In this document: positions 520 through 5,318 of the stretch, in pieces
Position numbering within the stretch: the stretch's first letter is position 1
How the letters are laid out: every line of letters begins with the position of its first letter
Origin: a bacterium
Lineage (GTDB): Bacteria > Blakebacterota > Blakebacteria > Blakebacterales > Blakebacteraceae
NCBI GenBank assembly: GCA_025774205.1
Contig: JALGWK010000253.1
Location: forward strand, 1 to 5,318
DNA: 5,318 nucleotides
Direction: 5' to 3'
Made by a program: the position numbers and the translations under genes
Notes under the pieces: generated by a model
Databases searched by the model: none
What the model was told of the DNA's origin: nothing
Seen by the model: only the letters and a program-made list of their open reading frames with translations

Positions 520-1464
520 ATGCGAACAGGGTCACAGAAGCAGATCGAAGTCCTGGCGCGACCGGTGCTGCTCTTCTTCGCTGCTGCCCTCGTCATGACA
601 TTGACGACAGGCACGCTGCAGGCACAGGAGCATCACCCGGTCACGAAGGCGAATTATACCCTTGCCGCCCAGTGGACGGGGGCGAGGCTGAGTTCGAGGC
701 TTCACAGCACATCGGTGAATCCCGGCTGGCTGGAACACAGCAACCGGTTCTGGTACCGCTATGAAAGCCCGGCCGGGGCGAACTGGTTCATCGTCGATCC
801 GGCCCGGAAGTCGAAGGAACCGCTGTTCAATTCCGTGCGAATGGCCGCGGATCTTTCCCGCATGACACAGGATCCCTACGACCACCAGCACCTGCCGATC
901 GGTGGTTTCGAGTTCATCGACGAGGACGAGGCGATCCGCTTCTCAGTTCGGAGTACCCGGCCGGCGGCCGAAGATACCGCCAAAACCGCGGAGTCCGACA
1001 CCACCGAAAGTGAGGGCAGCAGCCGCAATCGGACCTACCGACCCACCGAAAAGACCCTCTGGTTCCGTTACGACCTCGGCTCTCAGCGGCTGACTCGTCT
1101 TGAGGATTACGAACCTGAAGAGCGGGAGCTGAGCTGGGCGACCTTCTCACCCGACTCCACCAAGGTCCTCTTTGCCCGCAACCATAACCTCTGGATGATG
1201 GAGCGGAGTGAGTACGACAGTCTCAAGGCCTTCGAGAAGGAGAAGGAAGAGAGCCGCGGGGACAGGGGCGGCCGTGGTCAGCGGGGTCGCAGCGGCCAGG
1301 AGGCTGAAGAAACCGAAGGGGAAGAAGAGCAGGAGGAAGAGGAAGAACTTGAGGTCGAGGAGGTCCAGCTCACCACCGACGGCGAGGAGTATTACAGCTA
1401 CGCCGGCAGCAGTTACGAGCGGATGAATACGGCCGAGTTCGACTCCACCGAGCGCGTACGGTGA
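520..1464 (+). CDS. DPP-IV-like S9B peptidase, N-terminal part (frame broken at its 3' end)
   Basis: This encodes the signal peptide and first beta-propeller blades of an exported dipeptidyl-peptidase IV-like protein. The start at 520 has a perfect AGGAGG. Residues 1-35 form a signal peptide: a basic start, a hydrophobic core VLLFFAAALVMTL, and likely cleavage after TLQA. Propeller character is shown by WFRYDLGSQRLTRL and by FSPDSTKVLFARNHNLWMM, the usual SPD...F.R.hNL blade motif, then LTTDGEEYYSYAG. Two low-complexity loops interrupt it: a Thr/Ser/Glu-rich one near residues 147-175 and a strongly charged Lys/Glu/Arg/Gly one at about 239-283. The frame stops at TGA 1462-1464, while clearly homologous sequence continues in the next frame (GEVYVFDL onward). 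On its own this piece has no catalytic residues. It is therefore half of one gene, either disrupted or mis-sequenced, rather than a separate gene. Confidence 0.85.
   Translation: MRTGSQKQIEVLARPVLLFFAAALVMTLTTGTLQAQEHHPVTKANYTLAAQWTGARLSSRLHSTSVNPGWLEHSNRFWYRYESPAGANWFIVDPARKSKEPLFNSVRMAADLSRMTQDPYDHQHLPIGGFEFIDEDEAIRFSVRSTRPAAEDTAKTAESDTTESEGSSRNRTYRPTEKTLWFRYDLGSQRLTRLEDYEPEERELSWATFSPDSTKVLFARNHNLWMMERSEYDSLKAFEKEKEESRGDRGGRGQRGRSGQEAEETEGEEEQEEEEELEVEEVQLTTDGEEYYSYAGSSYERMNTAEFDSTERVR
1427..1464 (+). other. Frameshift junction inside the DPP-IV-like gene
   Basis: The upstream frame is open until TGA 1462-1464. The downstream frame is open from just after TGA 1424-1426, so the switch must lie between these points. 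The upstream reading looks plausible up to ...FDSTERVR and the downstream reading from GEVYVFDL, which places the break near 1453-1462. Moving from one frame to the other is a +1 step, equal to one extra base or a deletion not divisible by three. I see no slippery heptamer and no prfB-like CTT-TGA signal. Relatives as I remember them have roughly 40-55 more residues here, including a second SPD blade motif and a YxYPMPGE-like segment, so a deletion is more likely than a single inserted base. Confidence 0.8.
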
Positions 1465-3064
1465 GGTCTACGTCTTCGATCTCGCCGCGGACAGTCAGAC
1501 ACGCATCAACGTTGAGCTGTACAAGGACCAGACTGTCTCGGTCTACACCAAGCGTCGGGATCCGACTGTGCGGACTCCCCAGCCGAGTATCTGGATGTCT
1601 GAGAACAACCGTGAACTGTGGTTCTCGCGGCAGAGTCGGGACATGCACAAGGTCGACGTATGCGTCGCCGATGTGGAGACCGGCGAAGTCCGGGTTGTCA
1701 TCGAGGAACGGCTGAACACCTACATCGAGATGCAGGGACTGGTGATGCTCAGGGACCGGAACGAACTGGTCTGGTGGTCGGAGCGTGACGGTTGGGGGCA
1801 CTACTACCTCTACGGCACCGACGGCAGGCTGAAGCGTCAGCTCACGTCGGGACCGTGGGCGTGCCGCGGCATCACCGGCATCGACGAGGATGATGGCGTG
1901 ATCTACTTCACCGCCAACGCGCGCGAGGCGGGTGAAGATCCCTACTTCAACCACTTCTACCGGATCGGCCTCGACGGTCGGGGAATGAAGCTGCTCAACC
2001 CGGGCGAGTTCGATCACCGGTCTTCGATCGATCCGAACAACCGGTACTTCGTGGACACCTTCTCCCGGGTGAACACGGCCCCGGTTTCAGCCCTCTTCAA
2101 CACCGATGGAGAGCAGCTGATGGAGCTGGAAACAGCCGATCTCTCCCAGCTCTTCGAAGCCGGCTACCAGTACCCGGAGCCGTTCGTGGCCAAGGCCGAT
2201 GACGGGATTACCGACCTCTACGGCGTCATGTACAAGCCGTTCGACTTCGACCCGGAGAAGCAGTACCCGATCATCGCCTACGTCTACCCCGGTCCGCAGA
2301 CCGAGAGTGTGGCCAAGGCGTTCTCGACCAACTCGACCACGACCTCCCTGGCTCAGTTCGGATTTGTGGTGATAACCCTGGGGAACCGGGGCGGGCACCC
2401 GAGCCGGTCGAAGTGGTACCACAACTACAGCTATGGCGATCTTCGTGACTACGGGCTGGCCGACAAGAAGACTGTGATCGAGCAGCTGGCGGTGCGGCAC
2501 TCCTACATCGACGTTGACCGGGTGGGCATCTTCGGTCACTCGGGAGGCGGCTTCATGTCTACCGCAGCCCTGCTGGTCTACCCCGATTTCTTCAAGGTCG
2601 CGGTTTCATCATCGGGTAACCACGAGAACAACATCTACAACAAGTGGTGGAGTGAAAAGCATCACGGTGTGACCGAGATCATCAATGCCGACGGGACGGT
2701 CTCCTTCGAGTACGACATCGACAAGAACTCGGAGCTGGCCGCGAACCTGAAGGGGCACCTGCTGCTGACGACCGGGGATATCGACAACAATGTTCACCCG
2801 GGCGGCACGATCAGGATGGCCAATGCCCTTATCCAGGCGGGGAAGAGGTTCGACCTCTTCATCTTCCCCGGCGCCCGTCACGGTTACGGGGGTATGGGTA
2901 ACTACTTCTCCTGGCTGCGGGCCGACTACTTCTGCAAACACCTGCTGGGGGATTATTCCACGAGTGTGGACATGATCGAACTGCTGCGTGAGCAGGATCA
3001 GAGCCCTGACGCCGGACGCCGGTCGGGTGGAGTCGTCAACCGTGGCGGCGGCAGAGGAGGTTGA
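1460..3064 (+). CDS. DPP-IV-like S9B peptidase, C-terminal propeller and catalytic domain
   Basis: This is the second part of the same peptidase, in the next frame. Family members cleave dipeptides from peptide N-termini. The first start-like codon in this frame is GTG 1568, with no ribosome site, so it is a continuation rather than a real start. Propeller markers include WMSENNRELWFSR and WWSERDGWGHYYLY, which is highly typical of DPP-IV relatives. The hydrolase domain begins near YGVMYKPFDFDPEKQYPI. The triad is complete: Ser in GHSGGGF (codon 2540-2542), Asp before NNVHP (2783-2785, aligned by eye with human DPP4 Asp708) and His in GARHGYG (2879-2881). Numbered along a repaired 847-residue protein these are about 674, 755 and 787. 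I do not find a clear DxxYEE dipeptide-anchoring motif, so strict DPP-IV specificity is unproven. The protein ends in a Gly/Arg-rich tail after HLLGDYS, and the stop is TGA. Confidence 0.88.
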   Translation, partial: GEVYVFDLAADSQTRINVELYKDQTVSVYTKRRDPTVRTPQPSIWMSENNRELWFSRQSRDMHKVDVCVADVETGEVRVVIEERLNTYIEMQGLVMLRDRNELVWWSERDGWGHYYLYGTDGRLKRQLTSGPWACRGITGIDEDDGVIYFTANAREAGEDPYFNHFYRIGLDGRGMKLLNPGEFDHRSSIDPNNRYFVDTFSRVNTAPVSALFNTDGEQLMELETADLSQLFEAGYQYPEPFVAKADDGITDLYGVMYKPFDFDPEKQYPIIAYVYPGPQTESVAKAFSTNSTTTSLAQFGFVVITLGNRGGHPSRSKWYHNYSYGDLRDYGLADKKTVIEQLAVRHSYIDVDRVGIFGHSGGGFMSTAALLVYPDFFKVAVSSSGNHENNIYNKWWSEKHHGVTEIINADGTVSFEYDIDKNSELAANLKGHLLLTTGDIDNNVHPGGTIRMANALIQAGKRFDLFIFPGARHGYGGMGNYFSWLRADYFCKHLLGDYSTSVDMIELLREQDQSPDAGRRSGGVVNRGGGRGG

Positions 3065-3075
3065 GGTCCGCTGGA

Positions 3076-3147
3076 ACGATGCTTTGGTGTACTGATGTAT
3101 TGATGGGCTGATGTACTGATATGTTGATGGACCGATGGACTGATGGA
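3076..3147. repeat. Tandem 8-bp repeat, consensus YTGATGNA
   Basis: Starting at 3092 there are seven consecutive 8-base units: CTGATGTA, TTGATGGG, CTGATGTA, CTGATATG, TTGATGGA, CCGATGGA and CTGATGGA. Two weaker units (ACGATGCT, TTGGTGTA) precede them from 3076. The core GATG is kept in nearly all. The repeat begins 12 bases after the peptidase stop codon and ends just before a hairpin. Because 8 is not a multiple of 3, it cannot be an in-frame peptide repeat, which argues against coding. Its function is unknown; slippage-driven expansion of an intergenic microsatellite is the simplest explanation. Confidence 0.8.
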
Positions 3148-3175: not shown

Positions 3176-3188
3176 ACGGTCGCATGTG

Positions 3189-3230
3189 AAGAGGGCACCG
3201 GGTTGTTTCTGCCTGGTGCCCTCTTTCTTT
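3189..3230 (+). terminator. Rho-independent terminator after the DPP-IV-like gene
   Basis: The left arm at 3189-3202 (AAGAGGGCACCGGG) pairs with the right arm at 3212-3225 (CCTGGTGCCCTCTT) in a 14-bp stem with one G-T pair. The loop has 9 bases, and T-rich sequence (TCTTTCTTT, 3222-3230) follows. There is no A-run on the left side, so it acts for the plus strand only. It ends the peptidase transcript and separates it from the cytochrome-porin gene. Confidence 0.88.
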
Positions 3231-3368: not shown

Positions 3369-4610
3369 ATGATGAAGCGAGGATTACCCGTACTCCTGCT
3401 GTTCACCTGCACACTGATCGTCGGAACCGTTCAGTCCGCGCAGGCTCAGCAGGGCGCGATGCTGTACGAGACGAAATGCAGCCGCTGCCACGCTGCCTTT
3501 GCTCCGTCAGATTACACCGCTGAAGAATGGCCGGGGATCGTCCGTTCGATGCGGGCACAATCGGCCCTGACCGCTGATGAAGAGCGGATCATCACCGACT
3601 TCCTGGTCTCTGAAAGTGAGCAGATGGAGGAGAGATCGGGGATCAGCTACAAGCCGGTGCTCGGCGGATACCTCTACACCGAGTACTTCGAGACACCCGC
3701 CGCGAAGAAGAACTTCGACATCCACTACCTGGCTCTCTACGCCTCGGGCTGGGTGAGTGAGGATATCTACTACTTTGCGGAGTTCGAACTGGAGCATGGA
3801 GGTACCGGCGGAAGCAATACCTTCGTGGAACAGGCCTATCTCGACTACTGGGTGAAGCCGAACATCGCCATTCGGGTAGGGGCCATGCTCGCGCCCTTCA
3901 ACCGGTTCGACGAATTCCACGATCCTATCTCGAATTTCATCGTCACGAGACCGCAGGTCTCACGGGAACTCGGCGTGAGCGCCTGGAAGGATGTCGGCGT
4001 CAATATCCACGGCTATTTCAATCTGAATGCTGACGCTTCCCTCGGTTTCGATCTCTACACCATCAATGGTCTCGGGGCCGGCAGCAATCTCAGGGGCAGC
4101 CGACAGTACCGGGACAACAACGAGGACATGGCCCTCGGCGCGCGGGTCAACCTGATGTATTCCGACATCCTCGAGGTGGGGGCGTCTCTCTATCAGGGCA
4201 AGTGGGACGACGCTGAACTCTACGATCTCCGGATGCTCGGGGTGCACAGCCTGATCCGCACTCCGCTTGCCGATCTGTATGGCGAGTACATCAGTGCGAC
4301 CTCTGAGAACGAAGCCCCCCTGGATGACGGCGAGATGTCGGGTTACTTCGTCCAGGGTACGCGACTCTTCGATCAGAAATATCGCGCCACCGTCCGCTAT
4401 GGGGCACTCGACTATCTCGATCCGGGCGATCAGTTCGGCCGTGATCCCGCCAAGGGAGATAAGGACCTGACCGAACTGGTGTTCGGATTCACCTACTACC
4501 CCGTGCCCCGGGCAGCGTTCAAGATCGAGTACAACATCTTCGGCGAGGGGGATCGGGCAACCGAAGAGGACAACAATCAGATCGGTATCCAGATAGCGGT
4601 GAAGTTCTAA
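3369..4610 (+). CDS. Single-heme c-type cytochrome fused to an outer-membrane beta-barrel porin
   Basis: A 413-residue exported protein. The ATG at 3369 is chosen because it begins a clear signal peptide (MMKRG, a hydrophobic core, then AQA with cleavage after residue 26); the frame is open further upstream, but that would bury the signal peptide and run through the terminator. The ribosome site is weak (ACGGGA, 9 bases before). A small cytochrome c module follows: heme motif CSRCH at residues 37-41 (3477-3491), then YTAEEWPGIVRSM, with Met61 a candidate distal heme ligand, and LTADEERIITDFL. These are the only cysteines in the mature chain. From about residue 78 the chain alternates aromatic and polar residues as in OprP/OprO-type barrels, with FVEQAYLDYW and RVGAMLAPFNRFDEFHDP, and ends IAVKF, the terminal Phe recognised by the barrel-assembly machinery. 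The architecture equals that of Cyc2-type cytochromes, so outer-membrane electron transfer is plausible; identity with Cyc2 is not shown. Confidence 0.85.
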   Translation: MMKRGLPVLLLFTCTLIVGTVQSAQAQQGAMLYETKCSRCHAAFAPSDYTAEEWPGIVRSMRAQSALTADEERIITDFLVSESEQMEERSGISYKPVLGGYLYTEYFETPAAKKNFDIHYLALYASGWVSEDIYYFAEFELEHGGTGGSNTFVEQAYLDYWVKPNIAIRVGAMLAPFNRFDEFHDPISNFIVTRPQVSRELGVSAWKDVGVNIHGYFNLNADASLGFDLYTINGLGAGSNLRGSRQYRDNNEDMALGARVNLMYSDILEVGASLYQGKWDDAELYDLRMLGVHSLIRTPLADLYGEYISATSENEAPLDDGEMSGYFVQGTRLFDQKYRATVRYGALDYLDPGDQFGRDPAKGDKDLTELVFGFTYYPVPRAAFKIEYNIFGEGDRATEEDNNQIGIQIAVKF

Positions 4611-4615
4611 AAAAA
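4607..4615. other. Overlapping convergent gene ends at a seven-A/T run
   Basis: The porin gene stops with TAA at 4608-4610. Seven A (4609-4615) follow on the plus strand, read as seven T by the DUF1080 gene. With six T the minus frame reads GTT TTT TAG and ends exactly here; with seven it reads GTT TTT TTA GAA and goes on. No hairpin terminator was seen between the two genes. Confidence 0.6.
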
Positions 4616-5318
4616 CTATGTTCCTGAATTCGACCCGGCTGCCGTGTCCCAGGAATCCGATGTGTCCACTCGCGCGGGCGAGTCCCGGGTGATCCCGGTG
4701 GTCCATGGTTTCAGGCGTACTCGCCTCGTCGATGTCGGCCTCAACGATTACATGACCGTTCAGGATGACGGTGATCTGTCGCCCGTCAGCGATCACCTCC
4801 TGGGTATTCCACTCACCGACCGGTGCCTGCCATCCGCGTTCCGCGGGTACTATCCCATAGATCGAGCCATGGTACTGGTAGGGCTGCAGTCCGGCGTACT
4901 GTTCCGATGAGTTGTCAAGGATCTGCAGTTCCATCCCCGCATAGGCGGCATCGCCCTCGAGGGGGGCTCTGATCCCGAGACCGTTGTTGGCTCCGGAAGT
5001 GAGCCGGAACTGGAAGCGGAGGACGAAGTTGTCATACTCCTCCGCGGTGTAGAGGTTTCCGCCGCCGCCGGTCCGCTCGGGATCGACCACGATCGCTCCC
5101 CCCTCAGCGACATACCCGATCGTATCTCCTGTCCAGCCATCAAGATCAGTACCGTTGAAGAGGGCGGTGAATCCCTCGTCAGTGAGGTCGACCTCATCAG
5201 TCGCAGCCCAGGCAGCTCTGGATATTTCTTCATCCCAGGCCGCGATCGCCTCTTCCAGCGCCGGCGTCGGCCAGGTCCGGGCCCTGATGCGCAGCATCTC
5301 GCGCAGATCGGTTCGCAG
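4607..5318 (-). CDS. DUF1080 (3-keto-disaccharide hydrolase family) domain protein, 5' end missing
   Basis: Reading from the right edge, about 236 residues of a jelly-roll PF06439 domain protein are visible. Its opening motif FTALFNGTDLDGW starts near 5171. NNGLGIRAP, MELQILDN, YHGSIYGIVPA, WNTQEVIADG and the closing SGHIGFLGHGSRVEFRNI follow in family order. Some members cleave 3-keto-glycosides in sugar breakdown, but many are uncharacterised. There is an ATG at 5295-5297, but the frame stays open to the edge and no signal peptide follows that ATG, so the true start, and perhaps another domain, lies outside. The domain ends at FRNI, yet no stop follows as read: the frame runs on antisense to the porin gene as far as TGA at 3960-3962. 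Removing one T from the run of seven (4609-4615) would place TAG at 4607-4609, overlapping the porin's TAA. I annotate that end as the likely true one. Confidence 0.8.

Follow-up and report, generated by a model that had tools for sequence, protein, structure and literature searches.

A conserved cytochrome-porin fusion with a TorC-type heme module as a candidate outer-membrane electron-exchange protein in a deep-sea-sediment bacterium

Among the closest described counterparts of the protein reported here is Cyc2, which carries a signal peptide, an N-terminal monoheme c-type cytochrome and a C-terminal OprP/O-type barrel within one chain of ~400 aa. Keffer et al. (2021) called Cyc2 unique for its fused cytochrome and porin, with an AXPXFAR[Q/K][T/Y] motif just ahead of the CXXCH as its defining feature (PMC8406198). 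A second point of reference is TorC, whose fifth, C-terminal heme hands electrons to TorA and has a free homolog in the monoheme TorB of Campylobacter (PMC6195509). Here we describe a 413 aa protein that shares the part order of Cyc2 and has a heme module of the TorC type. Its gene lies on the forward strand at positions 3369-4610 of a 5318-base stretch, hereafter the window, which is an entire contig (JALGWK010000253.1) of a metagenome-assembled genome (MAG) of the Blakebacteraceae (GCA_025774205.1, here G000; 3.09 Mb, 527 contigs, 86% complete). The fusion is a variant within the already known class of porin-cytochrome outer-membrane electron modules. We estimate a probability of roughly 0.5 that it represents a real, conserved and independently built cytochrome-porin fusion working as a small outer-membrane electron-exchange module.

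The chain, which starts at 3369 or at the next ATG at 3372, consists of a signal peptide (residues 1-26, 3369-3446) with a signal peptidase I-like end judged by eye as SAQA/QQ, a single CxxCH heme module (residues 27-90, 3447-3638), a short linker (residues 91-96, 3639-3656) and a barrel of ~317 residues ending in Phe (residues 97-413, 3657-4607). Cysteines occur only at positions 14, 37 and 40, so the mature protein retains just the two that bind heme. The initial annotation had read this layout, cysteine content included, from the letters of the DNA, and all of it is present. Around the CSRCH motif (residues 37-41, 3477-3491) the module matches the C-terminal monoheme part of TorC in NCBIfam (E=2e-7), while Pfam DHC covers residues 33-89 with a score exactly at its cut-off. 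The whole pentaheme TorC model reaches 30.4 bits against a cut-off of 478.2, with only its last 63 positions matching. An alignment of 15 modules, three fused and 12 free or otherwise placed in other genomes, has the TorC C-terminal/DHC-type signature of CxxCH, Trp and a distal Met at fixed spacing in every member, and the CxxCH, Pro46, Trp54 and Met61 are invariant throughout. Met61 (3549-3551), 20 residues past the heme His, is the probable sixth (axial) ligand, and the module is probably a compact Met-ligated cytochrome c of the TorC-C-terminal/DHC type.

An AlphaFold2 model of the heme module alone (predicted local distance difference test score, pLDDT, 79; predicted template modelling score 0.68) is well folded and compact, with helices at 2-10, 12-17, 28-39 and 43-64. 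Its leading structural matches are a sulfite dehydrogenase cytochrome subunit (Z 6.4), cytochrome cz (5.8) and DHC (5.1 and 4.8), all of them modest values. As Foldseek returned nothing for this domain at E<=0.001, assignment of the cytochrome fold draws on the motif, the family matches and these Z values together, and mainly on sequence. The NCBIfam and Pfam matches place the fusion's heme part in the same compact type as the C-terminal module of TorC, Campylobacter TorB and DHC, modules that are also found beside molybdoenzyme genes. Those cytochromes are soluble or sit on an inner-membrane quinol dehydrogenase, whereas the present module is carried by an outer-membrane barrel.

The OprP-like barrel proposed in the initial annotation is confirmed at the family level. 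Pfam Porin_O_P (PF07396) scores 23.4 bits, above its gathering cut-off of 20.9, and Porin_4 falls just under its own. A direct sequence search of the PDB with the single protein returned nothing useful; the profile of a 25-sequence alignment spanning the whole barrel, in which homology begins at about LGGY (residue 98), matches OprP (2o4v) with E=1e-4. By these profile comparisons the domain is a distant Porin_O_P/OprP-type barrel, and OprP, OprO and other Porin_O_P porins belong to the same family. Its chemistry appears to differ. OprP has an arginine ladder, according to a title cited in PMC8406198, while the barrel of the fusion has a net charge of -21 and a predicted strand bearing an acidic ladder on one face, E138-x-E140-x-E142-H143 (3780-3797). 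Positions 138, 140 and 142 are each acidic in 24/25 homologs and His143 is kept in 20/24. Given the alternation of residues, the three glutamates would face the lumen, the chemistry of which appears reversed relative to OprP; charge and strand both speak against a basic, anion-selective lumen. The fusion also bears a cytochrome and lacks a coiled coil in front of the barrel; heme is missing from most related barrels, and in many of them a coiled-coil-like stretch stands at that place. The other Porin_O_P protein of the genome (L001:1135-2214) lies near an open reading frame (ORF) assigned by eye as an ArsC-like low-molecular-weight phosphatase/arsenate reductase.

Comparison with Cyc2 shows a common layout and a different heme part, as the initial annotation had suspected. 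The fusion has a single CXXCH and exceeds the length of 365 aa used for Cyc2. A 16-stranded outer-membrane barrel also belongs to the description of Cyc2; what bears on it here are the Porin_O_P and OprP matches. The defining motif is absent, the residues upstream of the CXXCH being QSAQAQQGAMLYETK, and in place of the PXL motif shortly past the heme site it reads CSRCHAAFAPSDYTAEEW. Against a hidden Markov model (HMM) built from five plasmid-borne Cyc2-like proteins, two with the strict motif and the rest with a relaxed form, the fusion scores E=0.17, compared with 1e-190 or better for the members used in the build. Profile-profile alignment by hhalign (35% probability) is confined to 53 barrel columns and leaves the heme domains unaligned. 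A c-type cytochrome gene comes next at five of six Cyc2 loci examined; none follows the fusion gene, and no heme-copper oxidase was detected in its genome. A divergent but true Cyc2 that oxidises Fe(II) would show the part order and OprP-type barrel known from Cyc2 (PMC8406198), and the fusion shares these; yet with both motifs missing, no detectable profile relation between the heme domains, no cytochrome gene following and no heme-copper oxidase detected, such an identity is highly improbable and we rejected membership of the Cyc2 family. The fusion may thus work like Cyc2 without being Cyc2, since the layout is common to both and the heme part is not. The initial annotation had also suggested a separately evolved family for passing electrons across the outer membrane. 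Separate origin is supported, while the passage itself is a function that we infer from sequence.

The same two parts recur as neighbouring genes. In nine genomes of several lineages (G026, G311, G173, G146, G192, G076, G217, G453 and G451) the same heme module is encoded as a lipoprotein directly downstream, and on the same strand, of a related barrel gene; the first three are all the examined members of one phylum. Gaps between porin and cytochrome genes range from -31 to +343 bp in the first seven genomes. The cytochromes of these pairs have lipobox-like sequences, unlike the signal peptidase I-like signal of the fusion, so that the pair shares both domains with the fusion and differs in having two genes and a downstream, lipid-anchored cytochrome. 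In a tree of 35 barrel rows the seven paired barrels included fall into two separate, well-supported lineages, and the three fused barrels form one clade. As the two paired lineages are split from the fused clade, the association of barrel and heme probably arose more than once, and the fusion makes a recurrent partnership covalent. Barrel homologs consistently lacking a CxxCH had been named in the initial annotation as the finding that would count against its proposal. Most do lack a fused module, yet the nine genomes with this heme module encoded right after the barrel strengthen the case for a functional link between the two. The compared genomes outside the family of the host are related to it at the level of the domain only. 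Genome surveys beyond the genus yielded no further single-chain fusion, and neither the fusion nor the two-gene pair was found reported in the open-licence literature. A plasmid match in Ca. Manganitrophus (H15) that apparently included the heme region was discarded as a broken lone barrel.

Two neighbouring arrangements are of note in other lineages. A Legionella anisa plasmid (L062:1617-5803) encodes WP_082654126.1, another fusion of c-type cytochrome to a barrel-like part; it differs in having three CBB3-type heme domains and a C-terminal part with no Pfam porin match. Two more c-type cytochrome genes come after it, and the next gene bears the same TorC-like module. Related Porin_O_P-type barrels also lie beside FMN-binding and/or ApbE flavinylation genes (L058 and L056, in G214 and G345), which suggests a flavin-based partner in other lineages.

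The kinship with TorC also gives rise to the main rival reading, in which a substrate enters through the barrel, a periplasmic reductase held at the pore uses the heme module as docking site or electron donor, and electrons never cross the outer membrane. This would be analogous to the service of the TorC C-terminal heme domain to TorA (PMC6195509). Relatives of the module adjoin a molybdoenzyme gene in G188, G250 and G043, the enzymes of the latter two named by eye; among the 11 heme-module-only matches of a first survey (E<=1e-6), three were molybdoenzyme-adjacent and six porin-adjacent. Molybdopterin-family oxidoreductases exist in the host genome, and the outer-membrane porin ExtI of Geobacter influences selenite and tellurite reduction (PMC5877670), although ExtI, which we compare by description only, has no heme in its chain and has multiheme partners. 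However, no reductase gene was recognised beside the fusion or the nine porin-cytochrome pairs examined, and an acidic barrel is ill-suited to an oxyanion channel. We regard a docking role as rather doubtful.

A further idea is that the heme module of a nutrient porin is mainly structural, or a plug, gate or periplasmic sensor, its redox state opening or closing the channel. The short linker and a position at the mouth would permit plugging, and the coiled coil of many related barrels occupies the place of the heme domain. Against this, fused and free modules alike keep the key cytochrome residues without variation, and a plug alone leaves the separate lipoprotein cytochromes that accompany barrels without explanation. 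Such a role is unlikely.

The fusion is maintained by selection. A pattern scan of genome contigs, which reaches close relatives only, yielded the protein in two further MAGs, L003 (Meg19_1012_Bin_119; 90% identical), probably the same genome as G001 of our set, and L004 (Meg19_46_Bin_182; 61%), with the junction intact in both. The name Meg19 belongs to a sediment core from the Guaymas Basin (PMC10290634), and the host of the fusion is a deep-sea-sediment bacterium. The ratio of nonsynonymous to synonymous substitution rates is 0.087 against L003 (~0.11 for the heme part, 0.07 for the barrel) and 0.16 against L004, and the fusion is under purifying selection. Intact recovery in two other MAGs and these low ratios make it more than a chance product. 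An assembly or annotation artefact joining two genes might be entertained given that the window is a short MAG contig with a damaged neighbouring gene, but with the same junction on independent contigs and strong purifying selection it is scarcely credible.

Within the window the fusion gene is probably a separate transcription unit, because an intrinsic-terminator-like hairpin (3188-3226, forward strand; -30.6 kcal/mol, z -6.6; counterpart in L003 at 5413-5443) closes the upstream peptidase unit and the downstream gene is convergent. The remark in the initial annotation that no partner genes were visible in the window agrees with this arrangement.

The electron-transfer capacity of the host was assessed from its genome and those of its relatives. 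G000, G001 and G386 all carry genes for cytochrome c maturation, which covers both the genus and the genome of L004. In G001 a cluster on contig C34 (L095 2294-12716) encodes a tetraheme and a nonaheme protein, a decaheme protein of the DmsE/MtrA family (219.6 against a cut-off of 192.2) and, next to it, a 626-aa orphan barrel-like protein with no Pfam or NCBIfam match, as well as CcmF, two octaheme proteins, CcmC, CcmE and a cytochrome b. Counterparts of most of these genes lie on contigs C81, C300 and C27 of G000 (L093, L094 and L137), among them the 626-aa protein at 77% identity over most of its length; no DmsE above the cut-off was found in G000. The cluster is likely a separate electron conduit. 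MtrAB and MtoAB conduits resemble the fusion in uniting an outer-membrane barrel with a heme protein, whereas they consist of a large barrel and a decaheme wire, and this genus seems to have such a conduit as a separate system. COX1, the marker of heme-copper oxidases, was sought in G000-G003 and the genome of L004, which are incomplete or of unstated completeness, and none was found. Together with the multiheme cluster and the maturation genes, this suggests an anaerobic host that performs extracellular electron transfer. In G001 a 1140-aa ORF (L091:280-3702) joins a molybdopterin oxidoreductase with a cysteine desulfurase of the NifS/IscS type, and its first part occurs on contig C166 of G000.

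For the electron-exchange reading we propose the following model. The barrel would sit in the outer membrane with both ends periplasmic, and since the linker is only a few residues long, the ~65-residue Met-ligated heme domain would be held in the mouth on the periplasmic side or just at it. A small, soluble partner in the redox exchange may enter through the acidic barrel, with a cation or metal species a likelier candidate than phosphate, and the heme would relay single electrons between this partner and a periplasmic cytochrome pool that, in this genus, may include the decaheme/large-barrel/multiheme cluster. Given that cluster and the lack of a detected heme-copper oxidase, electrons would more likely flow outward, and reductive exchange is likelier than aerobic iron oxidation in the manner of Cyc2. 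Several observations weigh against this model. One heme alone cannot span the membrane, so the partner must enter the pore. No partner shares the transcription unit of the fusion gene. Conservation of the acidic strand extends to the entire barrel family, cytochrome-free members included, and so does not mark electron transfer in particular. As the genomes are incomplete (G000 86%), the failure to find COX1 is no more than suggestive. Finally, a full-length AlphaFold2 model built from three sequences reached a pLDDT of 33, so that only the prediction of the heme domain gave a fold; a scan of viral contigs for further sequences found none.

Taken more specifically, the fusion may be a separate counterpart of Cyc2, that is, a one-protein, one-heme exchange module combining a TorC-type heme domain with an acidic barrel of the Porin_O_P family, which would serve anaerobes in reduction rather than in oxidation, and with an undescribed two-gene version of porin and heme lipoprotein across several phyla. 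We put this forward tentatively. If true, one heme and a small outer-membrane barrel would be a recurrent solution, seen in a second fusion made from unrelated heme parts and in repeated two-gene pairs, and extracellular redox activity in uncultured anaerobes would gain a new marker. It would also caution that not every cytochrome-porin fusion should be called an iron oxidase. The split pair is open to experiments in cultivable relatives.

The remainder of the window holds features apart from the fusion. A search for Rfam families and tRNAs found none in it. A single DPP-IV/S9 peptidase gene, whose L003 version encodes 949 aa, is broken into two ORFs at 520-3064, with ~58 residues absent and the frame broken near 1464, by assembly error or as a pseudogene. 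Between it and the fusion gene lies a degenerate 8/16/24-base tandem repeat (TGTACTGA-like) at 3088-3145. The convergent ORF for a 3-keto-disaccharide hydrolase, on the minus strand at 3960-5318, lacks a stop codon around the point where it should end and continues for ~650 bases antisense into the fusion gene.
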